DNA of 30,288 bases. Origin: Spirogloea muscicola (lineage: Eukaryota > Streptophyta > Zygnematophyceae > Spirogloeales > Spirogloeaceae). Under the pieces are notes generated by a model. That model did not search any database, had not been told where the DNA came from, and was given only the letters and a program-made list of their open reading frames with translations. This document shows positions 1-29,705 of the stretch, piece by piece. The DNA is taken from NCBI GenBank assembly GCA_009602725.1, contig WELB01000014.1, positions 603,555 to 633,842 on the forward strand, in the 5' to 3' direction. The number at the start of each line of letters is the position of its first letter. Position 1 is the stretch's first letter. A program made the position numbers and the translations under genes.

Positions 1-1383
1 GGGCGCGCGCGGCCGCGGCGGCGGCGCCGGTGAGGTCTGCCGGCCGGCTGGCCGCCGCCACGCGGGCTCCCGAACACTGACGGAACGGTCGGCGACGGCG
101 AGCTGACGTCCCGCCGACGGTCATCGTTTAAGCAGAAAAGAACGACTTTGCCGTTGGAAGGCAAGTGGCTGTGAGGGGCAAGGGCTGTGAAAAGCCAGCC
201 AGCCCGAAAAGAATTGACAAAGGTCTCGAATGGGCCAAATGACGGAGGGGCCTAAAGCGCTATGTCAGACCGGGTGGAGGATGGACCACTCAGCAGCGAC
301 GAGTGAGGAGCCTCAAATCCGACAGATTAGCTGCCGGAAAACGATCCCCTGTGAGAAGCCCAAAGAAGTGCACAAAGGTCTCAAGCAGACCAAGAAAGAC
401 TCAGAAGATGAAAACAGAAGAAGCTCTTACACAAGATGATGGACTCTTCCAGTAGAGGGCATTGGCTGTGACTGGCCAGCCTTGAGAAATGTTGAACAAA
501 GTTCGAAGGGTGTCAGAAAGCCCTGAAGCACACGGCAACTCAAGTGGCCACTGGGCGCTCAATATCCCCTAGTAAGCAGCCGAAGATCAGAGAAACTAGT
601 CTCCAGGTAGCAGGTCCCGTGTGTAGCCAGATGCTGCAGCCAGGGCGGGCACGCAACGACACAATGGTCAGCGATATCGGCACCAGAAAGTTGCCCTTAC
701 ACCTCTCATCAACCACAACTTGATAGTGGCATGCAATGCATATTTCGTTGCCCACTTGAATAGGACTACATTTCATAGTACAAAGCACACATCTAGAATC
801 ATATCCAGAAAGTACCACAATAGTCCACAAGTGAGCAGTATGTTGAATTGTGATAGAAATGACCTAGAGGACCCCCACAGGTACATTGTGCTTCAAGGAT
901 CCTCGACCTCCTCAAGGCAGTCTCCGTTCATTTACTTTCATGCCTTTCACCAAGCCCTCCAGATCCTTTCAAGCTGTTAGTTGTGATGCCTTAGATGAGC
1001 CACATCCAGGTTGTAGCAGGCACTAACTACATGAATGATGGCCTTCCATGAGCATCATCCTGATCACGTGCTTTGGCTCAAAGTCCAGGCCATATGTCTC
1101 TACTCAGGAAGTCGTCAACAGCGACACCCTCCTCCATTGCACTTCCAATTGTCAGGGCCTGCTCAGAGACGCTTAGCCCAGACATCAATACCTCTCGAGT
1201 AAGCTACGTCCTATTCAAGGCTATGCTGCGACAGCTAAATGTCAGACCCAATATGCAACGCTTCCAACTTACCCTGCACTCAGCTAATTTCTTCGCGACT
1301 GATTGCTCACAGAAGCAGGCCTCTGGTACACTGCTTCTCAGAGCGCAGCTTCAAGTAGTCTCTAACAGGCATGGTTATTAAAA
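1..1383. other. Non-coding 3' flank of the aminotransferase gene
   Basis: No supported gene. The first 110 bases are very GC-rich with GCG/GGC runs and could be the edge of a neighbouring GC island or exon, but nothing can be translated with confidence. Two degenerate copies of the stem-loop repeat that is common at the right end of the window lie at about 165-225 and 440-490. The remainder, about 500-1383, has only short open frames with no recognisable domain. The BAG-side-style poly(A) signal of the aminotransferase gene should lie here (transcription runs leftward) but I cannot point to it. Confidence 0.6.
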
Positions 1384-12300: not shown

Positions 12301-14459
12301 AGCTCATTGATTAGGGCTGGAGTTGACTATATTGCTGAATAGGTGATTGAGAAGTTGGAGGGGCCAACAATAGGCCAGCAGAATGCTCTGCGCTTGCTTC
12401 AGGTACAGCTTCGTGCAGCACAGGGTTTTTCTAGAAGCAAAGTGCATCATGTCGTTCCAGCTTGCATGTTTCAGAGCCAAGGCTGCTGCCAGAGGTGCTG
12501 AAGTTTCACTATTGACGCTCCTCTGTGCAGGCTACGCTGTCTGTGGGCATGTATGAACTTGCAGGAGAGCTGGTGAGCAGTTGTCCCTTACAGCTCAAGG
12601 AGATATGTCAGCTTTACTTTCAGTAGCCATATCAATCTCTTGGTGTACACTGGCCTTAGTACCTGACGGAAAATAGTGAATTTCCCAGTGACAATCACAA
12701 ACTGACTGCTATGTCCAAATTGACATACCGAAGCAATGAGCTGTTACTGAGCACAGCACCCAACATACATGCGAAGGAATCCTCATGGCCTGGTTGAGCT
12801 AGGGTTCACCCGTGGCTACAACTGGGATGTCCTTACATTCGTATGACCAAGTCTCATCAGGTCCGCTTCCTTTTACGATCTGGGAGAGAGTACAGCAGCA
12901 CCGCTAAGGAAGCGGATGGCGGCTCAGATCATCTCCTGAAGTCGTTCTTCTCCTTCGGTTTCACCACAACGTACACGACTCTTGCCACTTGCTGACGCTC
13001 TCCTAGTCATGTTGCCTGACAAGTTCCCTGATCGTTAGCGGGAGGCTCATTTCACAGCCTGCCTGTCTTTAAAGTTGACTCTTGCAAGAGTGGCTTGGCT
13101 TATCTTGCAGGGCCCCTCAGTTGAGAGCAGATGTCTTACATGCTACTGTGAAGAACATCCTAGGGGATCATGCTCTTCTCCTACTTCGGCAGAAGGACCT
13201 ACACGAGCTCGTAGTGTTTGCCAGGGGCACGCAGTTTGAGCTTGATGTATGTCTCTGGTCCAGATGTGCAGTAGTCATAAAGAGAAGGACATGCCCATAT
13301 TACAGCACCTTGTATCCATATTCTAAGACCACCAAAGCATCTAGCGACGTTGTTAGATCTCTCTGTATCACGTGCATCGATAGATTGCTGCCAACTTGTG
13401 GTCTCTAAAGAGTGGTCACTAGCTATAATCGAAAGTGTTTTGCACCTGGTGCAGGAGTTCCTGCGAACAGAGAAAGGAAGGAGTGCACGATTGGAAGACT
13501 TTCCAACAGCTCTTCGCCTTGTATACAGCAAGGTAGTGCTCCAAATGCCTCTTGTTGGGCAGACTGCTATCTCTGTGCCGCTCTGTGCATGCCACGGGCC
13601 TTCTCATAGCCAGGAGGATTGAGCATTACAGGTCTGCATCTCTGTCTGCATCTCCTTTTGCAGCTCCGCATCAACTCTCCACGAGCCAGACTAGATGCCG
13701 AGTTCGTTTTAAACCACATGAGGGCGGCTAGCTTTCACGAGTGGACCATTGTGCTCGCAACTCTTTTGCATCGCATAGAGGTATGTGGATGCTCCAAAAG
13801 CATGTCAACCAAAAGAGTGAGTGTAAGCATGTCTGAGCTCCTTGGGCTCCAGTCCAATAAGGAGACTGAGAAGGTGGTGTTGTTGCTTCAAGCTCTGCAT
13901 CATGCCAGTAGTGGTCGAACTGCAGAGAGTGAGACTGGCAGTTTGACAAGTCTAACTGTTTGCAGATACTTTTGGAGTTATTTCGTAGTGATCTCAAGCT
14001 TTTCCGTGCCTTCAGCACCACGCTGAAGGTGCTGGCAGATTGCTTTCCATACCCTCCATTTTGACCCAACAGTCCTTGTGGAAGTTAACATGCATCAGCC
14101 AGCACAACACTTTCTTGAGGATGGAAGTCCTGATGCTAGACTTGCTGTACTTCAGGGGAATCTTAGCTTTCTTCGTCACGACGACTTTGTGTTCGTATTT
14201 CTGGGGGAGTGCATAACTACAATGAAGCTAATGAACAATAAGTGCATAAGTGCTGGACTGATTTCCCACTAAAGTCTCACTGTCAAACCTTGTTGGAATG
14301 CGCATTATGCAAATGCAGGCACAGGCTAATGCTGCCCAGTACAAGGACATGCTGTCAGTACTGGAGACTGAGCTCCGGCCCTTGCTCATTGCCAGCGAGA
14401 GCCAGAGGTTGACGAACCTGGCCAGCCCCGCAAAGCTTCGTAGTGCTAGCAGCTCGTGA
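6322..14459 (+). CDS. RIC1: RIC1 homologue, Rab6/Ypt6 guanine-nucleotide exchange factor subunit
   Basis: Twenty-three exons: 6322-6468, 6715-6822, 7169-7326, 7561-7642, 7826-8274, 8491-8947, 9214-9437, 9586-9781, 9961-10097, 10296-10470, 10627-10683, 10841-11020, 11385-11497, 11706-11876, 12088-12145, 12343-12402, 12531-12572, 12861-12970, 13111-13246, 13455-13532, 13664-13780, 13966-14028, 14319-14459. They sum to 3459 nt, 1152 aa plus stop, close to plant RIC1 (about 1.1 kaa). In yeast and animals RIC1 pairs with RGP1 to activate Ypt6/Rab6 at the Golgi. The start gives the family N-terminus MYIAYGWPK. Residues ~1-650 form the WD40-like propeller half, with SCICWSPDNAVFAVGW, NWPVRHVAA and RVFGDVSQE. 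The RIC1 domain covers about 730-1000, with LDFDREVYPVG, HSLEWLLFTVFDAEM, FPEYLDVVVSVARKTD and CFAKRQYRTATCYIL. The end carries RLDAEFVLNHM and EWTIVLATLLHR. No frameshift or missing block is seen, so it looks functional. RGP1 is not in the window. Confidence 0.95.
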
Positions 14460-15346
14460 GCCGTGTCAGTGAGCTCCTTGACCTCGACTAGACGCATTGA
14501 CATGGCTGTCATTAGACCTTACTTTGACCTGGTCACAGGTTCCAAGGGCTCTGTTAGTCCCCACTTTATCTGAGCCTACAGTTCAAGAATCTCTAGTGGA
14601 GACCATAGGCAGGCATATGCACCTCCCGCTCGTGACCAGGGCTTTACGTGCTGATGGTGGTGGCAGCCCTCATTGCACCCATTTGGGGCAGATGCTCTGT
14701 CTTGCTTGCCTGCATGCAACGTAATGCCGCACCACAGCTGACTCTCCAACAAATAGGACAACCCCTGTTATATTACGTAGCATTGCGAGGTCTCGAGGTG
14801 GTCAATCCTGGTGGTAGTCATCTAAGGTGGCTGCTGGGCAAGAGGCATGTGCACTGCCGTGCAGTCACCATCACTTATTGGCAAGCTTTTGCAGTGCTGA
14901 CAGCGCGGTTGCGTAGAACCCGCCAAAGCAGATCAGCGAGAGCAGTCACTGAGTGCCCAGCACCTGCTTAGCTCGAAAGTGAGACGTGTAACAGTCGGCA
15001 CCAGCGCTGGACAGCCGGGGCCAGCTTTATGAGCACTGCAGTCGTATGCATGTATACGAGAGCGCTCAGTGCTGCCTGGCCTCAAGCTCTTCGGCAAGTG
15101 AGCCGATCCAACGCCGAGAATTTGGACAGCTCTCACTGAAATCTTGGCCAAAGTTGGCGTAGTGGCAGAGCACACGTCGCCGGCCAGTCCACTAGCAGCA
15201 AGTGGATCTCATGGGCTCGGCAATTGACAGCAGCAGGCGAAGAACAGAGATTCGATCCCTGGTCGCTCGCAGCGGGCTCTCTGTATGCATCTGGCTGGCA
15301 CTTTACAGCCGACTCTTAAATATCAGCAGCCGCATTCTCTTGTGGC
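14460..15346. other. RIC1 3' flank, no gene identified
   Basis: This stretch follows the RIC1 stop codon (14457-14459). Part of it is the 3' UTR. Short open frames occur on both strands without recognisable domains. A single TGTAA, the poly(A) signal of chlorophyte algae, lies at 14987-14991, about 530 nt past the stop, but one five-base match is weak evidence. Confidence 0.5.
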
Positions 15347-15725
<379 letters not shown>

Positions 15726-17740
15726 TCGAACCGCCGTCGGGCGAGCGGGAAAGCCGTTACCGAGAGCAGGGGATCGAGTGGATGAAATTCCGTCGCCCTT
15801 TCGGCGTTCGACTCACCCACCAGAATCAGTCAGCCAGTACCTTTACCAAGGGACTCTTCCATCCGAAATCGGCTCGGCACATCTTGAAGCCCTCCCCGTA
15901 CTAGATGTGACACATGCCGTCATGTGTACAGCCACCGACCTTTATTGGCTCACGTGTACATCTCCCACCAAGGTATCTTTTTGTCAAAGCGCAGTGGCGA
16001 ATGCGGTTACCTTTTGCCCCACAGACTACAGCAAAGCTGACGGAGAAGCTAACAAAGACAGCGAGGTGGAAAACATGTCCAGGGAAGGCTGAAACAGCCG
16101 CAAGCTCTCTTAAGGCCAAAGCCGTGGTGGGAGCCAGCGGCGCTCTGGTCGATTACTGCGTGAAGGCCGTCGCAGCTGCACGCTGGAGTCGCCTTTTGCT
16201 AAGTGACAGTAAGCTCATCCAAGAAGTAGTGTGATTAGGTGATGGAGGGCTTGAGAGGCCAAGTACAAAGGCAAACATTGACTGATGTACATCTCTTGCT
16301 GCTAAGCTGACCCGCTCAGCAGCCACGAGTCAGCACATAGAGGTCGCTGACTGATGCCCGAATGGACGTCCCAGGAAGAGGGCGAGGGCTCTGAATAGTC
16401 AGCCCGAAGAATACTGAAAAAGTTAGGAGGGGCCCGAATATGCTGAAACACACGACCTAGCAAGTGCTACTAAGTGGCCCCTTGACAGCCCACTCGGCCC
16501 CAAACAAGTCTCACAGGCTCGGCTTTGCCTCTTCTTGTGGGCTTACTCGTGCCAAGCGCAATACTCATGCCACAATCAGGCAACTGCTGCGGCCAGGCTG
16601 CACTCGAGAACTTGTGCGCCCCTGGGGCTGGGCGTTAGAGCTGTCGCCACCTTCATCCTAGCAGCAGTGCCGCAACTTGCGCCCCTACTTAGCGGCCCCT
16701 TGCCCACGCTTGCAAAACCACTGCTGCACGCAGCTTACCGCCTCGACGGCTGGTGGAGAGTCTGTCGGGGTTAACGCCCTTATGACTTGTTGCTCTTTCA
16801 GTGCCCAAGTCTAACTTCCACCCTATGCCTGCAAGCATCAAAAGGTGGAGATACCTGCGGCCAGTGGCTGCCACACTGGCCAGTGGCAGCGTCTCTTCAC
16901 ATCTGTGCCGAAGCTTCAAACCCCTGACGTCAATCATCCTTCCATCTCTGCGACTGTAGCAACGTCGGCTCGCGCAGACTTCAATCAGCTGCTGTGCGGC
17001 AGATCAGAGCTCTTGCTTGCGTGCTGAATCATCCAGATCAATGTGAGGTTCAGAATTGAGCACCTTGGTCAATGATACTATGGTCACCCCCTACAAAGTG
17101 GGAATAAGCAAACATCATCGACATCGTTCCCTTGACCTCCTTCCTGTGCAAGCTCACAACGATTAACAGCCTCCTCCTTCAGATGTAAGCTGTCACTCGT
17201 TTGGAGAACTTCAACTCAAAGTCATATGGTAAGCTCAAATGTGGTCAGTGGTGTATCCCACATGACCACTCGCGCCGGGCACAGCTCAAGACATGGTCAA
17301 GCGAACATGTGCTTCAGTCTGCTCGTGATGGCTAGATTGAGGAACATTGTTGACCACATCCCTTACTGTCCAGAATCTTGCAATTGTGGTTTTCATTCAG
17401 GATCCTCCATCTGGCTTCGAGTGCGCCTGAGGTGTCTGGTTGGACGCAATTGCAGAGGGCTTGAGGGGCTCACTGTTGCTGCCGGGGAGCCCAGCAGCAA
17501 CCTGCGCTGGCAGGTCATGTCAAGAAGTGTGCACATATGCACAATGTCAGAAACAAAGGTGGCCGACAGAAGCATGCAGAACTGCAAGTCATTGTTCTGC
17601 TACTCACACAACTGTGTACTACAAGAGCACATCATCATGTCAGGGTCCACACAATCGATAATGGACAATGACTTGTGTCCAAAGCAACGGCAATGCTACG
17701 CACTTGAGCTGGAAGTACATATGAAAAGCCTATGAGAGAA
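15726..17740. other. Convergent intergenic region without an identified gene
   Basis: This region lies between RIC1 and the BAG6-like gene. An open stretch after a CCCCACAG acceptor-like site near 16021 runs to a stop at about 16234, but nothing in it is recognisable. A short piece at about 16257-16280 (GGCCAAGTACAAAGGCAA) matches part of the LTR-like repeat at 26885, and 16380-16410 resembles the dispersed stem-loop. The 169-codon plus-strand frame at 17226-17735 shows no domain or codon bias. I see no firm gene. Confidence 0.5.
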
Positions 17741-17778: not shown

Positions 17779-20192
17779 CTACTCACACATTACTACCTGA
17801 TTACAACGTATATCTGGAAGGATGCAAATAAATGACAAACGGAGAAGAACAAGAATAATTGGGTGTTGGAGGACAGAAGTGGGACAGTTGTGGACCTCAT
17901 CTTGTCCATCTGCTTGGACTTGGTAATCAGCACCACCATGGCTGTCTTTGACGTCACCATCAGCTATACTTGGACCTGCAACTGCATCATCCACGGGTTC
18001 TGATCCTCCCCCACTCCCCACCTGAACAAGCCAGATACTGTACTTAGTCATTAGAACAAAGCCACGAACTCACCCGTACTCACAGCTTGAACCCCAGGAA
18101 GTAAAAGTGCTATCATATACAGTCAGAGCTTGATAGCGATCCATGGGGTGTAGGGACACAAGATGAGACTAAAGCCAAGTCTCACCCTCTGGCGCTTTAT
18201 GGAAGTGCTATCAGACCCTCCATCCTGTGAAGAGCTCACCGGTACTTGCCTTTCAGCTTCTCCAGCAATCTACAAGTGAAGAGCTGCTGTTAAGGATGCA
18301 TTGAGTATCCGTTACAAACATCCATGACTCTGCAGAGACACGATGGGAGAAACCATGATGTCGAGCACCTCTCTCACAGGTTCCACTGCAGGTTGTGATG
18401 CCGACGGAGATGCTGATGATGGATGCGCTGCTTGAGGTGGAGGCTGTGGTCTCTGCATCAGCATGCCTCTATCCAAGAGGTTCTTAAAACCAAGTAGCTC
18501 AAGGGCCTGCACAGTGGGGGAGTGTGGGCAGATACTCTCAAGTCAAACACGTCAAACTGGTACCAAGGCCGGTACCAGCAAGTTGTGTGTTGCCATCACA
18601 ATACATGTAATGCTTGCAGTCTGCATCATGGCAAAGTAAAAAATATCCCAGCGAGTAGGAAGGTGCTCATGGAGCTGAAGCACCTCACACTAGAAGGCAA
18701 CGCAGTTATACAAAAGCAAGTGGGTTCATCATTGCTTGCAACATCACATACCTTGGCCACCTTGGGTACCATCTGGACTACTTGGCGACCAATGTCAGAT
18801 GGCTCTCCTCCATCCTGCACAATAGCGGGTTATGCATCCTGGAAAAATGGGCCTCAAGTGCCAATTTGCCATGTCTCCAAATGATATAGCTGCACAGATG
18901 CTGCTAATCACCTTCTCAATCTGATGGATTGAGTCTCCCTAGCAGGCCAAGCCAAGCGCACAAGTAGAGACCGTTCACTGCTGGCTACTCACAGTATGAT
19001 AACCCTTCCGTTGCACGTAGTCTGTAAGTGGGTCAAAGATGGCGCCCATGGTGGCAGGTGATGGCCCACTCTGGGCTTGTTGACCGTCAGCTGAGGTGCC
19101 AGCCCGTTGCTTTTGCCGCTCTGATGACCCAGGACTTTGCCCATTTGAAAGGCTTGGAGGCAATCTCTGTGCCCCAGCTTCTGGAGGTGCAGTTTCTGCA
19201 GCCTCCCTTGCCGGCTCATACATGGATTGAACTAGCTGCTAATACCATGAAACACGAGGCGCAGTGCTTCAGAGGAGTGCATGAATGTAGGACAACTGGT
19301 CCTTACTGGACAGATGCAGAATTCTAAACCTGAACAAACATATAGATACTCCGTCAGATTCTGCATTTTCAATTTCTGTCAGTGTGCCTGCTGTAGTAGA
19401 CCTGCTACAGTGAAACCAAGTCGGTCACTAAGAAACGTCACAAACTGTCACTGCTAAATAAAGGCCTCCAGCATTACCCTTGACAGCTGACGACTTCAAG
19501 GGCAAGCCAAGCCCAGATCCCAGAAGAATACCTGCTCGTCAGGGAGAAGTTGGGCTGCAAGTCGTTCCACGGTTTGACCAATGAGGGTGACAAATTCCTC
19601 GTCTACTTCTTCTTCCTCTGTGTTTGGGATTTGCTGCTGGGAAGCTTGAGGAGGGCCTTCTGTGCCATCACCTGTATAGGGGGAAGATATAGGACCATGA
19701 GCCAGCTCAAGCAAGCCACAAGAACAAACATCGCAAGATGGCATTTCAGCAGCGGGCACAGGCATGGGCTGGCTTCGTTAAGCGGCTCAAAGAGGGGGTG
19801 ACAGCAACCCCATTGAACAATTGGTATCAAATTAGCATGTATAAGACTTGCAACTTCACAAGCCTGGCAGGACTACAGGCTGCCTAAGTGCAGCAGTCAC
19901 AGACTGACCGGCATTCGGAATTGCTGGACTGCCCCGAGAAAGGGAAGCTAGCTGTGAAGGAGCTTGGAGGTTTTGCTGTGCTTGGGCCCTGGCTTGCTGA
20001 CTGGCAAGGTTCTCAGCCTGCAAGTAACGATCCTGCAATTCTAGCTGCTGAGCAATGCCCTGCAGGCAATGCCCCATGTGGTGCCAATTGTGCTGCGCCT
20101 GTCCTACAAGAGCCCTCAACTGTAGCTGATATGGTGTGGAAACTGGCGGCGGCTGCTGCTGCTGGTGCTGGTGCTGGTGCTGGTGCTGCTGC

Positions 20193-20225
<33 letters not shown>

Positions 20226-23200
20226 TGCTGCTGCTGCTGCTGAGCATTGATCAGCGTGTGTGCCTGGCTATGTGGCTGCCAATGTGCAGTTGGCTGCAGT
20301 CTTATCTGCTCTTGTCCCTGCCCAGCTGGCTGTGCCGTACGTTCTGACTGGGCTTGAGCTTGAGCTTGAGCCTGAGCCTGGGCTTGAGCCTGAGCCTGGG
20401 CCTGAAGTTGAACTTGGATATGCTGCTGTCCAGGGGCAGGAAGCTCTTGTGATGCCCGGAAGGGCGAACTGAAGCGGACATTCCCATCTTGGTCGACGCC
20501 CATGATTACCCCAGTGTGAGTGATTTGTCCAAACGTCCCAGCTTGCGAGGCTGTGGCTTCACTGATCTGGAGTGCATTACCAGGGCCAGCCCGAGGAAGT
20601 GACTGCAACAACCGATATGCATAAGTTCTTCAGACAGAGAGCATAGCTCAACTCACACCTGACTTAGCAGTAGTAAGCATCACCAAGAGTTTGATATGTC
20701 GTGCTTCAATATTTGTGAGATGCATGCGCAGACACGGTCTATGATGGTACTATTGTCATTTGATACACAAAGCACCATGTATACAAACATGCACCACTGT
20801 GCAAATTCAGCCAAGTTGATGACAAGTGAAGTACACAGGATCCAGATACCTGGATAATGAGGGGATTGGGCCCTGTTGGACTAATAAAAGCTGCTGGAGT
20901 AGTCAGGAGATTCGCTTGACCCTGACAGCCAATGAAGGGGTTGTTTACATAGAAGAAAGCCTTCCTTTTTCCAAGTATCCCTACATACATAGCAACAACT
21001 TGTACATGCCACATTGCTTATAGAGTGTGCATTGTGGTGGCTCTAGCTGCTCCATGACTTGTCACGTGATTACACTGCTAATGTCTACCCTCGATAATCT
21101 TAAACTGATGGCAACACATGAGAGTATGTGCTCTGTGCAATGAAGGCATTCTGGCAACAAGCTTACTTGAGCAAAGCCGATGCGCACTACTTGCACCATG
21201 CGAGAAAGTTCCAATATCAAGGGCACCAGTTCTTGGAATCGATTTGCCATTTGGAGCAGGTTTTGATCAAGTGTCACCCTCTGCGGCTGGCTGGTTGTGC
21301 CACAATCCATCTCAAGAGTTGTAGCTAAATTCTGCACATAATATCGAGAAGGTCAGAAAACACACTATCTATGTGTCAAGCGCTTGAGCTCAGCAAGGCA
21401 AGTATCAACCATCTTTGACAAGCATGATATTACTAGAGAACCTGCGCACAATCAACAGCTTCCGCTGGAGCATGTAGAGTGTGCTTTGCGAGGTGACATG
21501 GCCACTGCAGCGAACCTCTAGTAAAGTTGCAAATGGGCCAACCAGAAGGTCACGAGCATTGCGCAGAACAGCACCCATCTGGTGGGCCCCAGCTTGACCA
21601 CTCGGCATTCTGGCAGACGCACTATCCTCCGAAATATTCTGTTGACCCGCTGATGACGGTTCTGTACAGGCTGCTGCTGCTGTTGCTCCGCTGCTCCCTC
21701 TTGTCTCATCCTGGCCGCCATCTGCATGATGTTATGTTGTGTTGAGGATAGCATGCGAAGTATGTTGATTGTAATTATAGTGTAAATTCAGTCCAACCAA
21801 GATAGGTGGTGCAACAGAGAGGTGTGCAAAGGACTCTTACGCAATTGCATAAAGCGTCCTGGTTGATTGTCACTTGTGCTTCTGGACAACCAAGGAGACA
21901 CGAATCATGGCACCAGTGATGACAACAACTTACCCTGTTGTTGCATAGCCTGTGACAAGATTGATATGTAGCTAAGTGTCGTGGCCAAGGCTGTCGTCTC
22001 TGGGACAGTCTGCAGCTGCCCCAGTGTCACACATCAGTCATCTGAGGTGACCACACAATTTTAGCAATTATCTGCCTTGTAAGAGCTGGTCAACAAAGAC
22101 AGTCAAGCAGACGCTATGCTTGGGAGGTGCTGCAGGAACAGGTAGCGGTTGCATTTGCACCCACTTGCTGCTGACCGGAAGTTGCTTCCCTCGCTGGCGT
22201 GTTAGCTCCCTGTGTGAAACCTTGCGGCAGTACATGTTCAACTGCATTTGGACGGCCATTTGGACCAGGGGGTATTGGCTGGATTGATCCTTGTGCCAAG
22301 TTCCACATGTTTGCAGCCATTGCATTGTCTCCAACGTTGACTTGAAAGGCAGGCGCACTGCCGAATGGAGGTACCTGAAAAGCCAGATGATACCGATAGG
22401 CTTGCAATCTGGAATGTGGCATGCTGGTGGCAGAAGAAAGTGCTGTCAAGAGACTGCACAGTCCTAGAGACACAACTAATCCCCTTCCTGCCAACGTGAC
22501 GTAAGCTGAAAAAGGTATTACATTGTTGGACAGAACACACGTTTGGCAACCGGAGGAGGAAATGCCATGACAACATGCTACAAGGAGGTAGCCAACAGCC
22601 AAGTAGAAAGACTTACAAGCTCATTGACAGTAGCAGTATTGTAGCCAGCCATGCCAACAGAATTCAGAACTGTACCCAACACCTAAGAGCAAAGGCCAGC
22701 ACAAAGATGGGATAGTGAACTCAGCACAAACTTTGTAAAACTTAGGCTGATTCTTCTTCTCTGATGAGAGTTGCTTCAGGATATGAATGGTGACTCTCAC
22801 CTGATTGAAGTCTGGCGCCGTGCCGACAACGGCTGGGAATGGCATGTTCAAAGGAGGGCCCCCAAGACCCGCTGGTTCATCACCTGCCAAGTGTCCAACT
22901 ATTGCACATGTTATTTCCTCCTCCTTGATCTCCTTCCAAAGCTGATGCTTTCACAATCAGGTAGACACAAAGGTAAAGCACACTGCAAGTGCGAGTACAA
23001 TATGCTTTACCGAGCCTCCCATACCATGCATTTGCTCTGGCGAAGGCTGCTGACTCTGGGCCTGCACCGGTCGAGTAACAAGGTGCAGAGTATGCCCGTC
23101 ATCAATGCCTGTTGTGCATGCATAAGATAACAGATTGTGAGTCAGCCTTGCACAAGTGCAATACCCTACGTTGTCAGAACCCTGTGCAGACATTGAAGCC

Positions 23201-23730
23201 TTTGTGGACATGCCTGTCGACTCTGCAGCCTGCCAACATGCAGCGCTCCAAAGGCTCCAGAACTTGTATCTGCTGCAGTGTGACGAGAATTACCGAAGTC
23301 GGATAAGAACTGGTCGTCCTTCAAAACTTTCCCTTTGCAAATGAGCCGCTGCTGTGGCGGCGGCACGTTCGCAACCACTGCGATGCGCTCCTTCAACGCG
23401 TGTACCGCAATCTGATCAAAATAAGGAAGTGAAGCAATGAAATTCGGAGCTGCACATCTCTACGTCAAGAATCTGGTCTTCCATACCAGCACGTCATTCA
23501 GGAGCGAGTGCCATGGCAGCACTCTGCGTCACTTCGGGTGCCTGCAATCTCGCGTTTAGCCATCTCATGGAGCACTGGCGCTCGGACTGAACATCGGAGG
23601 CACGGCGGAACAGATGTCCGACGCGAGAGCAGCCGGCGAGGCAATTGTGGAATAAATTCTCACGCGTCTGTCCACGCGGAGCGTGTACTCCTCGGCGCCA
23701 AGCGTCTTGACGCGGATCTCCACGTCATCC

Positions 23731-23765
<35 letters not shown>

Positions 23766-23786
23766 CTGCGCCGACGACTCGGCCAT
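17779..23786 (-). CDS. BAG6: BAG6-like ubiquitin-like-domain protein (plant type)
   Basis: Eighteen proposed exons: 23786-23664, 23411-23294, 23108-23011, 22941-22801, 22682-22617, 22374-22165, 22009-21934, 21721-21516, 21331-21167, 20921-20850, 20602-19909, 19671-19532, 19235-18993, 18938-18912, 18814-18752, 18506-18378, 18269-18240, 18021-17779; 2844 nt, about 947 aa. Animal BAG6 is a chaperone holdase in tail-anchored protein targeting and degradation of mislocalised proteins; the plant homologue is less studied. Residues ~21-96 are a ubiquitin-like domain: VEIRVKTL, PPPQQRLICKGKVLKDDQ, DGHTLHLV. Plant-family blocks follow: TVPETTALATTLSYI, LRNARDLLVGPFATLLE, and TPAAFISPTGPNPLI near residues 408-425. 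Exon 11 is Gln/His/Ala-rich. DIGRQVVQMVPKVAKV near the C-terminus recalls the plant DLSRMVQQMMPIVSQVL motif. Poly-Gly at residues 8-19 comes from a GCC run. Exons 1-13 and 15 are well supported; the 27-nt exon 14 and exons 16-18, including the hydrophobic tail, are tentative. Confidence 0.87.
20150..20245 (-). repeat. CAG/CAC triplet repeat in BAG6-like exon 11 (poly-Gln/His)
   Basis: The plus strand shows GCTGGT and GCTGCT runs. On the coding strand they read CAG and CAC/CAT codons, giving a Q-rich tract with HQHQHQ units followed by PPP. It is in frame and uninterrupted, so it is a translated microsatellite and likely length-variable. Confidence 0.85.
20350..20415 (-). repeat. Hexanucleotide repeat coding (Gln-Ala)n in BAG6-like exon 11
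   Basis: Alternating TTGAGC/CTGAGC-type units on the plus strand read as CAA/CAG GCT/GCC codons on the minus strand, giving about ten QA dipeptides. It is separate from the Q/H tract at 20150-20245, with about 30 ordinary residues in between. Confidence 0.8.
23729..23765 (-). repeat. (CCG)n microsatellite coding poly-Gly at the BAG6-like N-terminus
   Basis: About twelve CCG triplets on the plus strand read as GGC codons directly after MAESSAQ in the first exon. A second (CCG) run at 23791-23811 lies in the 5' UTR. Confidence 0.85.
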
Positions 23787-23926
23787 GACGACGCCGCCGC
23801 CGCCGCCGCCGCGGGCCGGCGAAGGGGGTGCGGCCGCGTCCCGTAGAGCTGCACTCTGGCTCCGCTAGTATAGTTACCAACACCCCCCAGTAAATGTTCC
23901 TTGCTTAAAGAATATGTATTTCAGCA

Positions 23927-24666
23927 ATATTCGGCCACCGGCTCCTGGGCCTGCCGCCACCGTGCCTCCAGGGTGTGCGTCAGTGCGAATGTGGCGAGCG
24001 AGGGGCCGAGCCTGGGGAGCTGGCCGCTCATGTTCTGCGCTGTTCCCACGGCGGAGAGCGGACAGCGGCCCACGACCGCCTCCGGGATGCGATGCATGGC
24101 ATCCTGGTGGAGGCTGGCTTCTCGCTGGCAGCGGAGAATTCCGCCGTCATGCCGCTCCAGCAAAGGGCCGACGGTCTCCACGCACGTCGCGTAGACCTTG
24201 TGGCCACCCCACGCGCCGGCGAGCCACGTCTTATCCTGGACGTGGTGACCACAGACGCATACGACCGCTCACACCCAGCCCAATGTGCCATCAAGGCTGG
24301 GTATGCGGTCGCCTGCGCCGCTCGAGCTAAGGAGCTCAAATATGCTGATCATCCGCGGGAAGACGAGTTCTTCCCGCTGGCTATCGACACGCATGGGGCG
24401 TTGGGCGGTGGCTCGAGCTGCTCAACTAGCTCGCCCGCCGCGCCATCGTCCGCCGCTTCCATGGGGAGCCAGTGGACTCTCCTGCAGCCGGGTGGCTAGC
24501 GCAGGTGTACCGGGTGCGCTTGGCCGTCTTGCTGCAGAGGTCTATGGCCCGCGCGCTGCACCAGCGTGCCGGCTGAGCCCTCGCTGCTGCCTCTGGCTCT
24601 GGCCAGGGAATCCACTTCCAGGAGCCTAGCTTCTCTGACCTGAGGCTGCTTAGCAGGGGTTACTGA
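23927..24666 (+). pseudogene. Broken C-terminal part of a non-LTR retrotransposon ORF
   Basis: A short leader (HRLLGLPPPCLQGV) precedes a zinc-binding pattern, CECGE...HVLRC, then GGER...H..LRDAM, then a stretch with RRVDLVA, LILDVVTTD, KELKYAD and FFPLAIDTHGALG. This order is typical of the region after the reverse transcriptase in some algal and animal non-LTR elements, where an RVD...LDV...K arrangement suggests a PD-(D/E)XK-like endonuclease fold. After about 24400 the homology moves to another frame (LARRAIVRRFHGEPV, GWLAQVYRVRLAVLLQRSM), which also holds a TAG and a TGA, so at least one frameshift and two stops are present. No reverse transcriptase is seen upstream; the copy starts about 140 bp from the BAG6-like start codon, so it is 5'-truncated. 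Confidence 0.7.
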
Positions 24667-24754: not shown

Positions 24755-24773
24755 GGGCTGGCTTTTCCAGCCC
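24755..24773 (+). repeat. 3' tail stem-loop, copy 1
   Basis: GGGCTGG, loop CTTTT, then CCAGCCC: a perfect 7-bp stem with a five-base loop. It is followed by CTATCCTCAATGGGCGAGC, which accompanies most copies. Confidence 0.85.
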
Positions 24774-25012
24774 CTATCCTCAATGGGCGAGCCCTTTCTT
24801 CTATGGCCCGCGCGCTGCACCTGCGTGCCGGCAGAGCCCTCGCTGCTGCCTCTGGCTCTGGCCAGGGGACCCACTTCCAGGAGCCTAGCTTCTCTGACCT
24901 GAGGCTGCTTAGCAGGGGTTACTGAGTACTACGTTGCTGCTTTGTTTCTTGTTGTGCTTGTTTCTCTTGGCGCTTCCCCTGGCCCCTTCTCGTACTTTGT
25001 TCATTCTTTTTT

Positions 25013-25031
25013 GGGCTGGCTTTTCCAGCCC
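25013..25031 (+). repeat. 3' tail stem-loop, copy 2
   Basis: Same stem and loop as copy 1, at the end of the second tandem unit. Its tail reads CTATCCTCAACAGGCGAGC. Confidence 0.85.
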
Positions 25032-25059
25032 CTATCCTCAACAGGCGAGCCCTTCCCTT

Positions 25060-25592
25060 TCTTTATCCTCTATGCACCTGGCTGGCCATTATATCCGCAC
25101 GTTTTTCTGGAGCCCGACGGCAACTGCTGCGTTGCCGCCGTCCGACGCCACGCCCACCGCGACGCCTGGCTCGTCCGTCCCGTTGAACGGGCGCGCTGCT
25201 GCAGACTCCTCCCCGGGCTGGCCTTATCGCCGGGCGTCAGACGCAGCCTCCTGAGCACACCTTCACAGACACAGCTCTTCCAAATCCATAGATGTCCCGG
25301 GCGCAGGGGCCGCCCCGCCAGCTGCGGCCATGCCGGCACTGCCGACGGCTCTGCAAGGCTCGGGGATGCTTAGCGATAACGAGCGCTCCCGCGCGTATCA
25401 TGATGTTGCTGAGAATCTGCAGAGCAGGGCGCAGCGATAAGAGAATCATTCCAGACGCCACGGCCAAGAGCAGCGTGCTGGACACTGGAGCGTAGAGTGG
25501 AGGAATACAACGGTCCAGGACTTGGGCCCCGATCCCGCTCACTGAACCCACGGGCAGGAGGCAAACGACCCGTCGGCTTATAGGAAGAGGGG
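25060..25592. other. Unassigned stretch between the retroelement tail and the LTR-like repeats
   Basis: GC-rich to about 25400. A plus-strand frame with PHVFLEPDGNCCVAAVRRH (about 25088-25150) looks protein-like but has no family I can name. On the minus strand this would be the interior following the PBS-like site at 25600-25611; the minus frame is open for over 100 codons but shows no gag or polymerase motif. Confidence 0.4.
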
Positions 25593-25593
25593 G

Positions 25594-26730
25594 GCTGTCG
25601 CTCCGATACCAAAGCGCCATCCTGGGCTAATCAATTTGACACTGTGCTCACCGATAACGAGGTTGCAGTGAACCACTTGTGTCTGGCGGTCTGAGAAGAG
25701 CTCAAACTCTCCTTCCTTCTGCTGTCACGGACTTGTCACTCCCTGCATGCCCACTGAGGACCTTAGAGGACTCTTCCTTAATACAAAAACACGAACTCCG
25801 TAGCGCTCCAGCAGGTTTGAGGCACTGCCGGGGATTATCTTGGAGAACCTCTCCCCAGAACCATGTTTCTCATACTGGGCAGCAAACCTGCTGGGCTTCC
25901 GCATTGCGCGCCACCTCCATTCTCCTCCAAAATTCTCAGAGTTTGTGGAGATGCTCAAGTGTGAGCAGGACAATCGCCAAGAGATGCCTATTGTGCCCTC
26001 CAAATTGTCCATGCAGGTGCTCAGCACTAGCTCGCTGCTCGGTTTGAACAGGCCAGTGGTCCTCAAGCCCAGCACTTTAAAGCAGGCCAGATGTCTGTAG
26101 TCCTAAAGCCCAACCCTCCACCATCATGAGCTGAGGTGCTATTCACATCATGGCTTGAAGCTGTAATAGTAGCAGCAGATAAAGTATTGCAAGCAGGCTT
26201 GACCACAGCCTCCCTACGCATTTGAGGACTTCGATGTGGCGATGCTCGTGCATGGTGGTCCCTGGCGGCTCGGACTCGGGCCTGCAGCGGTCTGAATGAA
26301 GGTTTGCTGAGCTTTGCAGGAGAGGCCCTCACCAAACGTCACCCTCTCCATCAGCACCAATGGCTTGAGCTCAGGTCACTAGTGCAGTAACTTAGCCACC
26401 TCGTGCATCTGGGTACCAGTAGGGTCCACATCATGCTGCGGCCACAATTGCTGACGCCCCTCGTTGTGCACTTAGGCTGGAGTTGATCTTGCACCCTCCC
26501 CTTAGGCCGCCCATTCAGCCAACTTCTGTCTGCGGATTGCCATGCGCCCGCAGCATGGATGATGACAGATTGATCAGGCTTCAACGGGAAGCGGAAGACC
26601 GTAGCCGTATCAGTCCTTGTAGAAACTGGACAATTCTCACAGCCCTCGCCCCTTTTGGAAAAGCTGCTTCGCTTAAGGCCCACAATGATGCTGCTTGGGC
26701 GCAACCCAGGATCCACAGTGGGGCGTAGCC
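25594..26730 (-). mobile_element. LTR-like direct repeat, copy A
   Basis: About 1.14 kb that matches copy B (26781-28247) along its whole length with many substitutions. It shares landmarks such as GGTGCTCAGCACYAGC, CCACCATCATGAGCTGAGG, the run around CATGGTGGTCCCTGGCGG, and CTGGGTACCAGTAGGGTCC. On the minus strand its 3' edge carries TGGTATCGGAGC (plus strand 25600-25611), close to the plant LTR-element primer-binding site TGGTATCAGAGC, which pairs with initiator tRNA-Met. No terminal TG..CA pair or target duplication could be fixed. Open frames are broken on both strands. Confidence 0.5.
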
Positions 26731-26737
26731 CCACTAT

Positions 26738-26781
26738 NGTTGGGTGGGGGGGGGGGGGGGGGGGGGGGGGGGTGGGGGGGG
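26738..26781 (+). repeat. Poly-G tract with adjoining N between the two LTR-like repeats
   Basis: An N at 26738 is followed within a few bases by 27 G, one T and 8 G (26746-26781). Just before it, GTGGGGC and GCCCCAC (about 26718-26734) form a small hairpin. The homopolymer and N mark an unreliable join exactly where the interior of an LTR element would be expected. Confidence 0.75.
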
Positions 26782-28247
26782 CTGTTGCTCCGATACCATA
26801 GCGCCCTGCTGGGCGAATATGTTGGGGTTGGGCACCGTTCTACTGATGCCGAGGATGCGTGTATATTAAGAGATGGGGAGGCCATGTGTGGCCAAGTACA
26901 AAGGCAAGCACATTGGACAAATGTACGTCACGAGGATGCAGTGGTTCACTTGCGTCTGCGGTCTATAAAGAGCTCAAAGTGTCCTTCCTTTCGCTGTCAC
27001 GCACTTGTCACTCCCTGCATGCCCCCTGAGGACCTTAAATGACATCCTTGAAGCGAGGCAACAAAAGTCGTGGCGCTCCAGCAGGTATGAGGCACTACTG
27101 GGCACCATCTTGGAGAACTCCTCCCCACAAGCCATGTTCCTCATATTGGGCACCAAACTGCTGGGCTTTCATATTGATTGCCTCCTCCTCTCATCCTCCA
27201 GACTCTTAGAGGTTGTGGAGATGCTAACCGTGCGAGCAGGACAATCGCAAAATACGCCTATCTGCCCTGCAAATTACCCATGCAGGTGCTCAGCACCAGC
27301 CCGCTGCTCGATCTGAATAGGCCTAAAGCCCAATACTCAAAACCAGGCCAGACGTTTGTAGTCCTAGAACCCATCCCTCCACCATCATGAGCTGAGGTGC
27401 TATTCACGTCATGGCTTGACGCTGTAGTGGCAGCAGGAGATAAGGTAGTGCAAGCAGGCTTGACCGCAGCCTCCCTGCGAATTGAGGACTTCAGTGTGAC
27501 GATGCTCGTGCATGGTGGTCCCTGGCGGCTCGGGTTCAGGCCTACAGCCAACTGTTAAGGCTTGCTGAGCCTGCATATCGTAGTCACAATGCTGAGGAGC
27601 TGTAACAGCCGTCCCCCCCCCCTCTCTCGTCGGGCGGGCCAGATTAATTCAGGTCCCCTAAGACTCGGCAATTGCGATAGTTGCCAATTGTAGCTGGCCT
27701 ATGTAGGGCCTGTTATTGCTGCGTTCACCTTTCCTCTTCACCGACGGAAAGAGGGTGTGCGCATGATTGGAGCGGGGTTTGTGATGTCGACCATGGCGGC
27801 CTGATCTGATGTCCAGGTTTTTCCAGCTCGACACTTAACTAGAGGCCCTCACCAGATGTCACCCTCTCCATCAGCACCAATGGCTTGAGCTCAACTCACC
27901 AGTGCATGTGTAAGGTAGCCACCTCGTGCATCTGGGTACCAGTAGGGTCCACATCATGCTGCGGCCACAATTGCAGACGCCCCCTCGATGTGCACTTGCG
28001 GCTGGAGTTGAACTTGCATTCTTCCCTTAAGCCGCCCATCAGCCATCTTCTGTCTGCAAATGGCGCGCACAGCATCGATGATGACAGATTGATCGGGCTT
28101 CAACAAGAAGCAGAAGACGGTAGCTGTATCGGTCCTTGTAGCGATTGACCATCTCACAGCCATCGCCCACTTTGGAAGAGCTGCTTCGTGTAAGGCCCAC
28201 AATCATGCTGCTTGGGCGCAGCCCAGGTGCACTGTGGACGCGTAGAA
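26781..28247 (-). mobile_element. LTR-like direct repeat, copy B, with an internal insertion
   Basis: Second copy of the repeat, same orientation as copy A. TGGTATCGGAGC lies at the same edge (plus strand 26787-26798) and both copies end at the far edge with CTACGC on the minus strand (28247 and 26730). It is longer than A mainly because of about 264 extra bases at 27575-27838. It also has extra sequence near 26810-26930, next to the PBS-like end. It encodes no intact protein. Confidence 0.5.
27575..27838. other. 264-bp insertion in LTR-like copy B
   Basis: Copy A runs from TTGCTGAGCTTTGCAGG straight into AGAGGCCCTCACC. Copy B has TTGCTGAGCCTGCAT, then about 264 unrelated bases, then AGAGGCCCTCACC. 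The insert holds a run of about ten C and a CAATTG...CAATTG pair around a short palindromic core (about 27670-27692). No coding signal is visible. It could equally be a deletion from copy A. Confidence 0.5.
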
Positions 28248-28790
28248 GCTTACTGCGTGGAATGCCACCGTGATGCCATTTGTGGGGGCCTCGGAATGTG
28301 GCCACCCGCGGGCAACCGGCGGGCAGCTGATGCGGTGCGGTATGCCTGCAACCCATCGGCTCCTGGTGGAGCTGCTGCTAATGGTTGGAGCCGCTCCTCT
28401 TTTTGAAGAGCTTCCTTACCTCAATCTGCGGAGTGGAGGATCTAGTAGTTGTGTAGAAACAGCTCTTCCAATGTAAGGCAATGGCCAGCCCCGAGGAATG
28501 TAAAGTCGAAGGACTCTTCCAGTAAAGGGCGATGGCTGTGATGGTCAGCCCAGAAAGTGTGAAATTAGTGCTAACGGGCCAGAAAAGCAACGAAGCATGT
28601 ACAAGCACAAATATCTGTACACGCATTGTACAAATCGTACAATGCCCTGAGAAGGTGCCGGAAGGGCGCACAGGTGGAGCGACGCAAAACGCGGCGCGGG
28701 CGCCGTACTGGCGCCCGTGGCCCGTCCGAGGCCTAGAGGAGTACGTCGGCCTAGCGGGTGGGCGCAAGGGGGGGTTTTGGAGGAAGTCAG
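28248..28790. other. Unassigned repeat-rich stretch
   Basis: No gene recognised. It contains a degenerate stem-loop copy (GGCTG 28534-28538 with CAGCC 28546-28550) preceded by GGACTCTTCCAGTAAAGGGC, which recurs with one change at 441-460. A strong GC hairpin, CGGGCGCC-GTACT-GGCGCCCG, lies at 28697-28717. Confidence 0.5.
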
Positions 28791-28791
28791 T

Positions 28792-28962
28792 GCTCGCCCA
28801 TTGAGGATAGGGGCTGGAAAAGCCAGCCCAAAAAAGAATGAATAGAGTACGAGAAGGGGGCCAGGGGAAGCGCTAAGATGAACAAGCACACAAAGAAACA
28901 AAGCAGCTACGAATCACTCAGTAACCCCTGACAAGCAGCCGCAGATTAGAGATGCTAGGGAG
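28792..28962 (-). mobile_element. Solo 3' tail of the non-LTR retrotransposon, minus strand
   Basis: The reverse complement matches the 3' UTR of the element at 24650-24800: the CTGCTT...GGGGTTACTGAGT start, GCTGCTTTGTTTC, TTGTGTGCTTGTTC, the GCTTCCCCTGGCCCCCTTCTCG run, the stem-loop at 28811-28829 and CTCAATGGGCGAGC. The coding part is lost, so this is an independent 5'-truncated insertion of the same family. Confidence 0.75.
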
Positions 28963-29060
28963 GGAATTTATTGGGCAGCTAGTCTGTCGGATTTGAGGCT
29001 TCCTCACTCGTAATTACTGAGTGGTCCATCATTCCCCTGTTACTCTGTTCATTCTTTTTC

Positions 29061-29079
29061 GGGCTGGTTGTTCCAGCCC
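29061..29079 (+). repeat. 3' tail stem-loop, divergent copy
   Basis: GGGCTGG, loop TTGTT, CCAGCCC. The stem is intact although the loop has changed, and the tail CTATTCTCAATGGGCGAGC is present. The sequence 5' of it differs from the full tail copies. Confidence 0.75.
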
Positions 29080-29425
29080 CTATTCTCAATGGGCGAGCAC
29101 TTTCTTCCCCCCGTACTGCCATCGCTTCTTCAGGCCCCTTCTTCTTGCCCTAGACTTTAGTTTACCCTAGACTCTGCCTGAACAATGTGTCGGCCTGAAT
29201 TGGCCTCCATTTCATTTCATGCGCCCCGCGCGCCTTCTCTTCTCTCTTGCCCCTTCGTAGCTGCTAAGCGCTTTTGGGCCCCTTCGGGCCCCTTCCCCCT
29301 CTGCACCGTCTTGCACTTTGTAGTGTAGTCCTTTTTCCCCTATCCTCAACAAGCAATAGCTTTTTCAGTGTAGTCCTTCTTCTTCTTTTTCAGCACCTCT
29401 TTCTTTGGCTTTAAACATTGTTTTT

Positions 29426-29444
29426 GGGTTGGCTTTGCCAGCCC
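29426..29444 (+). repeat. 3' tail stem-loop, copy with a G-U wobble
   Basis: GGGTTGG, loop CTTTG, CCAGCCC. The C-to-T change in the left arm keeps pairing in RNA as U-G. TTCTCAATGGGCGAGCACCTT follows in shortened form. Confidence 0.7.
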
Positions 29445-29504
29445 CCCTTTAACTTCTCAATGGGCGAGCACCTTCTTTCTTCGAACCTTTTGTCAATTCT
29501 TCTC

Positions 29505-29524
29505 GGGCTGGCTTTTCACAGCTC
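29505..29524 (+). repeat. 3' tail stem-loop, weaker copy
   Basis: GGGCTG with CAGCTC across a longer loop keeps six pairs including one G-U. It resembles the minus-strand copy at 182-205, which shares the CTTTTCACAGC form. Confidence 0.6.
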
Positions 29525-29545
29525 TTGCCCCCATTGGGAGTGCCA

Positions 29546-29705
29546 CTACTTCGTTTCAAAATTGGGACCGCCGATTATGGGGCCACGGCCCTTCAGCACA
29601 CTTGTGCCCATGAACCCACCTGCCGCGCTGACGATGATTCCCCATAACCCCCAGAAGGCCTCAAAACACCCCCCCACCGTCTGGTAAATAGGCTGGGCCC
29701 TCACA
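29546..29705 (-). CDS. Unassigned open frame with hydrophobic segments (possible exon)
   Basis: Reading leftward, the frame gives PIYQTVGGCFEAFWGLWG, then IIVSAAGGFMGTSVLKG, then GPIIGGPNFETK and a stop. It looks like a small membrane protein C-terminus with two Gly-rich hydrophobic stretches, and acceptor-like AG sites lie just upstream on the minus strand. I cannot name a family. Upstream is a poly-C hairpin. It may be an exon of a gene extending past the window or a chance frame. Confidence 0.25.

Follow-up and report, generated by a model that had tools for sequence, protein, structure and literature searches.

A recurrent hairpin at LINE ends

We analyzed a 30,288-nucleotide (nt) stretch of Spirogloea muscicola DNA (the window, meaning the whole stretch; C14:603555-633842), which carries a recurrent hairpin, GGGCTGG-loop-CCAGCCC, that lies at the ends of copies of a long interspersed nuclear element (LINE). 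A C-terminal fragment of the LINE open reading frame (ORF), with a CCHC knuckle and a restriction-like endonuclease (RLE) region, occupies 23975..24499 on the plus strand and stops early relative to copies ending in ...RLLSRGY*. This LINE copy ends in the hairpin GGGCTGG-CTTTT-CCAGCCC (24755..24773, plus) and a 28-nt terminal tail, CTATCCTCAATGGGCGAGCCCTTTCTTC (24774..24801, plus), which together typify tail family A. This LINE 3' end is then repeated in tandem as a second, 5'-truncated copy at 24802..25059 (plus; hairpin 25013-25031, tail from 25032), and the tandem pair recurs on contig C12 (locus L009). Further tails include a family A tail without an ORF at 28792..28829 (minus, the strand being judged by the tail; hairpin 28811-28829) and a tail-only insertion of family A2 with the loop TTGTT at 29061..29107 (plus; hairpin 29061-29079). 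The latter interrupts a family B 3' untranslated region (UTR), with B sequence recognizable by eye on both sides when compared with the B 3' UTR of locus L036. A family C-type tail, broken by a few bases and with a U-G pair in its stem (GGGTTGG...CCAGCCC), lies at 29426..29475 (plus), its hairpin GGGTTGGCTTTGCCAGCCC at 29426-29444 differing by one change. The tail motif CTATCCTCAATGGGCGAGC was found with 0-2 changes at 24774, 25032, 28792 (minus) and 29080, against a chance expectation of mean 0.00. Hence, an earlier note on this DNA was right in placing the element at 24755, 25013, 28811 (minus), 29061 and 29426, with exact hairpins at the first four positions and one change at the last, and in reporting a motif that follows it, which stands behind those first four hairpins.

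Other assignments in that note changed upon comparison with further LINE families. The copy at 29505 indeed has a hairpin with one G-U pair by eye (GGGCTG-N8-CAGCTC, 29505-29524), but it belongs to the separate family B, not to family A (tail at 29505..29552, plus, with a possible second small hairpin, CCC-CATT-GGG, seen by eye). What had been taken for degenerate forms at 464..481 (minus) and 28534..28550 (minus) are instead tail hairpins of family E, that is, of separate LINE families, while the one at 182..205 (minus), a hairpin with a 4-nt repeat that looks B-like by eye only, is probably the tail of a separate LINE family as well. A related hairpin at 16386..16405 (minus) is, by eye, nearest to the family E and F tails. 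The window further holds tails without an ORF of more distant families, namely H (GGCTG-GCACTTTA-CAGCC; 15281..15333, plus), K (GGCCA-CACA-TGGCC; 26843..26906, minus) and I (GGCC-TGAATT-GGCC, then GCGC-N-GCGC; 29179..29242, plus). Scanned against Rfam with gathering thresholds, the window gave 0 matches.

Within the window, palindromes with up to three mismatches were only mildly in excess (7 versus a mean of 3.0, with 4 of 100 shuffles reaching 7). The excess was settled at the genome level (153.1 Mb in 471 contigs), because the exact pattern GGGCTGG-N5-CCAGCCC occurs 7,321 times and the reversed control pattern 0 times. The oriented anchor CTMTYCTCWATGG has 4,201 exact copies, split over the strands as 2,105 and 2,096.

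The hairpin block is conserved in otherwise unalignable 3' UTRs

Using tail-anchored searches and the loci fetched with them, a sampling that misses copies with strongly mutated tails, we distinguished families A, A2 and C with tails CTATYCTCAATGGGCGAGC or CTCTTCTCTATGGGCG.GC, family B with TTGCCCCCATTGGGAG.GCC and family D with CCAGTYAATCTGGCCGCGC, as well as families E and F. Fixed patterns for B and D gave 2,029 and 1,724 copies genome-wide. More distantly related members of this LINE group, with ~30-70% identity in the matched C-terminal parts, carry the tails G, H, I, J and K, and a first look at two of these families gave 14,741 and 19,229 candidates. The hairpin core recurs among them: H retains GGCTG/CAGCC in 15 of 15 loci, G has GGCC-ATTT-GGCC in 14 of 15, K has GGCCA-CACA-TGGCC in all 5, and the I and J tails have GGCY/GGCC stems.

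The position of the stem-loop is fixed near the LINE 3' end, as observed at 24/30 loci of family A-type LINEs, 14/15 of G, 15/15 of H and 5/5 of K. From its 3' arm to the element end, placed by eye where the flanks diverge, we counted 23-28 nt in families A-H and K and 34 nt in J (for family I, the test picked another pairing), and in the GGCTG/CAGCC families the hairpin thus lies ~23-28 nt before the element end. The hairpin therefore does end a retrotransposon, as the earlier note had it, and did not turn up far from any retroelement tail. Upon comparing one ORF-linked copy each of families A, B, C, D and F, we obtained mean identities of 0.55 (shuffled, 0.53) for the earlier 3' UTR, 0.75 (0.62) for the 16 nt before the hairpin, 0.82 (0.55) for the hairpin and 0.64 (0.54) for the tail; E, with a tail situated behind another element, as well as J, I and K2 stand outside this comparison. 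Because of these values relative to the shuffles, it is the hairpin block that stands out as conserved in a 3' UTR that is otherwise unalignable, although its identity drops to 0.69 (shuffled, 0.52) once H, G and K are included. The minimum-energy structures of 13 of 14 folded tails contained the hairpin, the exception being family E, where another pairing was used; in the same folds, the D, I and J tails and one G2 tail formed another small stem close to the end.

A perfect inverted repeat of such abundance might also be a DNA-level palindrome, for example the end of a miniature inverted-repeat transposable element (MITE), the end hairpin of a Helitron, or a recombination site. This is contradicted for the sampled copies by the fixed place behind LINE ORFs, by constancy on one side of the copies only, and by the target duplications and 5' truncation described below, and we regard it as hardly credible. 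The Helitron and MITE readings were set aside on these same grounds, and a histone-type hairpin on general background.

LINE tail subfamilies on contigs C1-C4 are segregated along the contigs, with B and D variants changing together. The B variants have the loop CTTCTCAC or TTTTCGC, and the D variants are of the TTAAT or TCAAT type. Among the first 100 B and first 100 D copies listed, leaving aside those on C5 and intermediate variants, the nearest D tail within 150 kb was TTAAT-type for 0 of 42 TTTTCGC B tails versus 23 of 34 CTTCTCAC B tails, and like neighbors accounted for 66/76 B and 63/70 D tails, which was never reached in 10,000 shuffles. This looks like the subgenomes of a polyploid, or like mixed contigs. 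Separately, exons of chlorophyll a/b-binding (LHC) genes were found in sets of about three contigs (C130/C37/C98, C229/C24/C8 and C30/C76/C28) with a matching exon layout by eye, three near-identical exons being read; such triplets would fit a triplicated genome. In sequence, exons of this kind resemble proteins of the green lineage: an Lhca4-like exon reached 218-267 bits with 18 Lhca4/P4-type chains, some of them from seed plants, versus at most 185 bits with every other chain listed. An LHCII exon, taken as a whole sequence, had its top score with a 620-residue Euglena chain (349.8 bits, probably a sum over repeated units), followed by further chlorophyll a/b proteins at no more than 276 bits. 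We take these matches to point to a streptophyte green alga.

Drifting inserted copies show no visible constraint on pairing

The earlier note had proposed that pairing is kept while the sequence drifts. If pairing were under selection in dispersed copies, there should be more compensatory changes than the product of the single changes predicts. Numbered from the outside, the seven stem pairs of A/C tails are G-C, G-C, G-C, C-G, U-A, G-C and G-C. At pair 4, we counted 4,201 C-G, 513 U-G, 22 C-A and 2 U-A genome-wide (the C-A and U-A counts being taken from 24 listed copies), where independence predicts about 2.7 U-A (513 x 22/4,223). As 97 of the 100 U-G copies listed carry the C-type tail CTCTTCTC, the U-G variant is mostly an inherited subfamily and not the product of repeated events. 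From 272 tails in five groups, 227 dispersed hairpins could be scored, the other 45 having no scorable hairpin, and copies adjoining places found by the exact-hairpin search were excluded from the tallies since they had been selected by that hairpin. The changed pairs comprised 18 one-sided changes that still paired, 47 one-sided changes that broke the pair, 2 two-sided broken pairs and 0 compensatory changes. Likewise, among 21 distinct hairpins (from 61 copies), there were 0 double changes, and 480 of 500 shuffles reached the covariation score. Inserted copies thus accumulate changes with no visible constraint on pairing, and the excess of compensatory changes whose absence the note had named as counting against its proposal was not seen in dispersed copies.

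Between families, the picture is suggestive. MAFFT misaligned the hairpins of GGCC versus GGCTG families in a set of 27 tails, and the arms were hand-anchored instead, giving nine distinct arm pairs; the count covers the arms only, without the letters between them, family G or most G2 rows (whose short loop leaves no room for the innermost pair). Pair 5 was U-A in four, C-G in three and U-G in two; pair 6 was G-C in four, A-U in two and broken in three; and pair 1 varied and was broken in five of nine. Seven cells were altered on both sides, three pairs showed double changes, and 41 of 500 shuffles matched or exceeded the covariation score. Some stem pairs hence appear to differ on both sides between families, which is only suggestive since the nine rows fall into two groups and the double changes may represent one or two events.

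These data bear on whether a linear sequence (GGGCTGG...CAGCC) is what is recognized, with the hairpin being incidental. The core sequence is constant in families A-F and H and no compensatory change occurred within copies, as a linear signal would have it, whereas between the family groups stem pairs differ on both sides (U-A/C-G and G-C/A-U), and the U-G variant was amplified while the C-A variant was not. On balance, we consider linear recognition unlikely.

Sampled ORF-less copies look like truncated LINE insertions

Across 202 tails, the shared upstream sequence, including the hairpin, varied widely in length (median, 92.5 nt). The earlier note had suggested that copies without ORF sequence could be truncated insertions or a short interspersed nuclear element (SINE) that borrowed the tail. 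The many short copies would suit a SINE family with its own head, but the breakpoints are spread and do not define a single head. In a sample of 180 copies with A, B, C or D tails from the fetched loci, the shared upstream sequence stopped within 25 nt of the end of the LINE reference match in 147 and was shorter than that match in 19; 14 extended beyond it, the extra part belonging by eye to other LINE tails or 3' ends in 13 and being ambiguous in one. No SINE head was found among these 180 copies, leaving the borrowed tail unsupported; we regard this explanation as largely refuted for the sample and very improbable overall.

Truncated insertion is supported by the spread 5' breakpoints, the shared 3' end and target duplications. 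For 155 of the 202 tails (those with a 5' extent of 20-600 nt and enough flank), we searched for abutting direct repeats and obtained 22 of at least 8 nt versus 1.97 expected from mismatched pairs, 14 of at least 9 nt versus 0.55, and 7 of at least 10 nt versus 0.20. Rerunning the test with a slightly wider start range yielded 23 repeats of 8-11 nt, and one further copy (L058), from outside that rerun, has 24 nt; 11 of the 23 start with three pyrimidines, a count for which no background was computed. Overall, the sampled copies show 5' truncation at many points, a common 3' end and, in part, short target duplications (mostly 8-11 nt). As judged, without alignment to 28S, from their dispersal over many contigs and their differing duplications, the copies are not inserted at the 28S ribosomal DNA (rDNA) site. 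Exact A/C tails also cluster: on C1, 12 gaps shorter than 600 nt occur among the 78 tails listed, compared to a random mean of 1.57 and a maximum of 7 in 5,000 draws.

The LINE protein has an R2-type architecture

Comparing the reverse transcriptase (RT) with solved structures, we found three R2 chains to match best (4.9e-10 to 3.1e-8), ahead of bacterial group-II-type RTs (8.7e-5) and LINE-1 ORF2 (7.5e-4), while the match to the Bombyx R2 RT was weak (0.074). In an alignment of seven C-terminal sequences (A3), C4, C6, H19, C23, D74, D89, K119 and Y123 were invariant, which we take to represent a CCHC knuckle and PD-(D/E)xK endonuclease motifs, the roles of the motifs being assumed. Pfam and NCBIfam named no endonuclease in the LINE protein; structure comparison did, with all top matches of the predicted C-terminal fold being R2 (mean predicted local distance difference test score of the model, 66). 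A putative C2H2 zinc finger lies at residues 303-323, below the Pfam cut-off, and one copy, searched over its 610 N-terminal residues, had no Pfam match to an APE domain. As predicted from these models, the hairpin-tailed LINEs have an R2-type protein architecture, with an RT near R2, an R2-like C-terminal endonuclease fold and a weak N-terminal zinc finger. A search of viral contigs for the LINE protein confirmed none, and a RuBisCO large subunit search, aimed at a plastid contig, had no match.

Elsewhere in the window, two intron-bearing host genes, which we take to be a RIC1-like gene and a BAG6/ubiquilin-like glutamine-rich gene, extend by eye over ~6400-14470 (plus) and 19000-23850 (minus). 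Between the LINE tails, ~25590-26735 and 26770-28245 are, by eye, tandem diverged copies of one sequence, the second of which contains the family K tail. Long runs of A and of G beside an N at 15541-15648 and ~26742-26773 are probably assembly gaps or sequencing artifacts.

Discussion

Our data indicate that the hairpin is probably a 3' stem-loop conserved across an R2-architecture (RLE) LINE radiation in what is probably a streptophyte green alga. Its position downstream of the LINE ORF is fixed, and it is common to families whose earlier 3' UTRs cannot be aligned. Since the zebrafish LINEs ZfL2-1 and ZfL2-2 lose retrotransposition when the stem-loop is deleted and derive specificity from its loop, as reported (PMC4176376), we infer that the algal hairpin is a recognition handle. 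By this analogy, its role is most likely RNA recognition for target-primed reverse transcription (TPRT), as in stringent-type LINEs, and the earlier note's suggestion of a 3' stem-loop for RT recognition is supported in the form of a probable recognition tail. The LINE protein would bind the stem-loop, TPRT would start at the end adjacent to it, and reverse transcription would usually halt early to leave thousands of short insertions that hold little beyond the tail, after which the copies would drift with no visible constraint on pairing.

Several observations weigh against this interpretation. No compensatory change was seen among copies, such that pairing is unproven by covariation; the excess of U-G over C-A reflects one or few source events; and two core G-C pairs are invariant between families, so the primary sequence could be the recognized feature. 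Folds of single tails were mildly better or no better than shuffles (z from -2.7 to +0.6), and the hairpins of distant families, whose ends were set by eye from flank divergence, were weak against shuffles (P = 0.048 for K, 0.07 for H, 0.08 for J, 0.13 for E, 0.16 for G and 0.21 for G2), with the test choosing another pairing for family I (P = 0.84). Furthermore, a clear target duplication was present in only 22 of 155 copies.

Alternatively, the hairpin might serve the LINE RNA not as an RT handle but, for instance, by directing the 3'-end processing, export or stability of a transcript lacking poly(A). The inspected copies do end without poly(A) or a simple repeat, and the hairpin is close to the 3' end, yet such a signal alone would not account for the common 3' end at which insertions begin, and in known stringent LINEs hairpins of this kind serve retrotransposition (PMC4176376); we therefore think it improbable. 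Returning to recognition for TPRT, family specificity may reside in the loops and the terminal 25 nt, both of which vary from one family to another. More tentatively, and with somewhat less than even confidence, one stem-loop with a GGC/GCC core, ~23-34 nt from the 3' end, might have been kept as the TPRT handle throughout the R2-architecture radiation, with about ten tail families in one algal genome, with the changing loops and terminal 25 nt making recognition family-specific; many RLE LINE families could then coexist without rDNA targeting and scatter tail-only insertions.

The eel LINE UnaL2 and zebrafish ZfL2-1 and ZfL2-2 belong to the L2 clade, with an APE-type endonuclease. Like these stringent-type LINEs, the algal elements have a short stem-loop near the 3' end, but their protein has an R2-type architecture and their copies end without short repeats. 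Hairpin-guided tail recognition has been assayed in these zebrafish and eel LINEs, which are of another type; the R2-architecture group adds thousands of natural 3'-end insertions and about ten tail families in one green algal genome, material ready for comparative work on the recognition of its own RNA by an RLE LINE protein. With R2, the algal elements share a single long ORF and an RT and C-terminal CCHC/endonuclease region that are closest to R2 among solved structures. They differ in being dispersed with differing short target duplications and in having one small hairpin as their 3' feature, which would contrast with the 3' UTR structure of R2. The target of R2 is 28S rDNA, and among the RLE clades described in the Utopia paper, HERO has many non-specific members (PMC4640811); by this description, the algal elements resemble HERO in coding for an RLE and in their many non-specific insertions.

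In the titles and abstract beginnings covered, in part, of the literature on RLE LINEs in green algae and on retrotransposons of zygnematophyte genomes, this tail did not appear. Conserved LINE 3' ends as such have precedents in green plants: Ohshima's review (PMC3747384) describes an L1 lineage of maize and sorghum in which compensatory changes are reported for a conserved hairpin tail, as well as Chlamydomonas LINEs and SINEs that share tails (RandI and L1-1_CR with SINEX). Those elements belong to the L1 clade or to RandI/Dualen and have SINE partners, whereas the Spirogloea elements are of R2 type, with no Pfam APE match in the one copy searched and no SINE in the sample. The algal tails bear on the question of an ancestral origin of specific tail recognition in green plants, an idea that one author put forward for plant L1.

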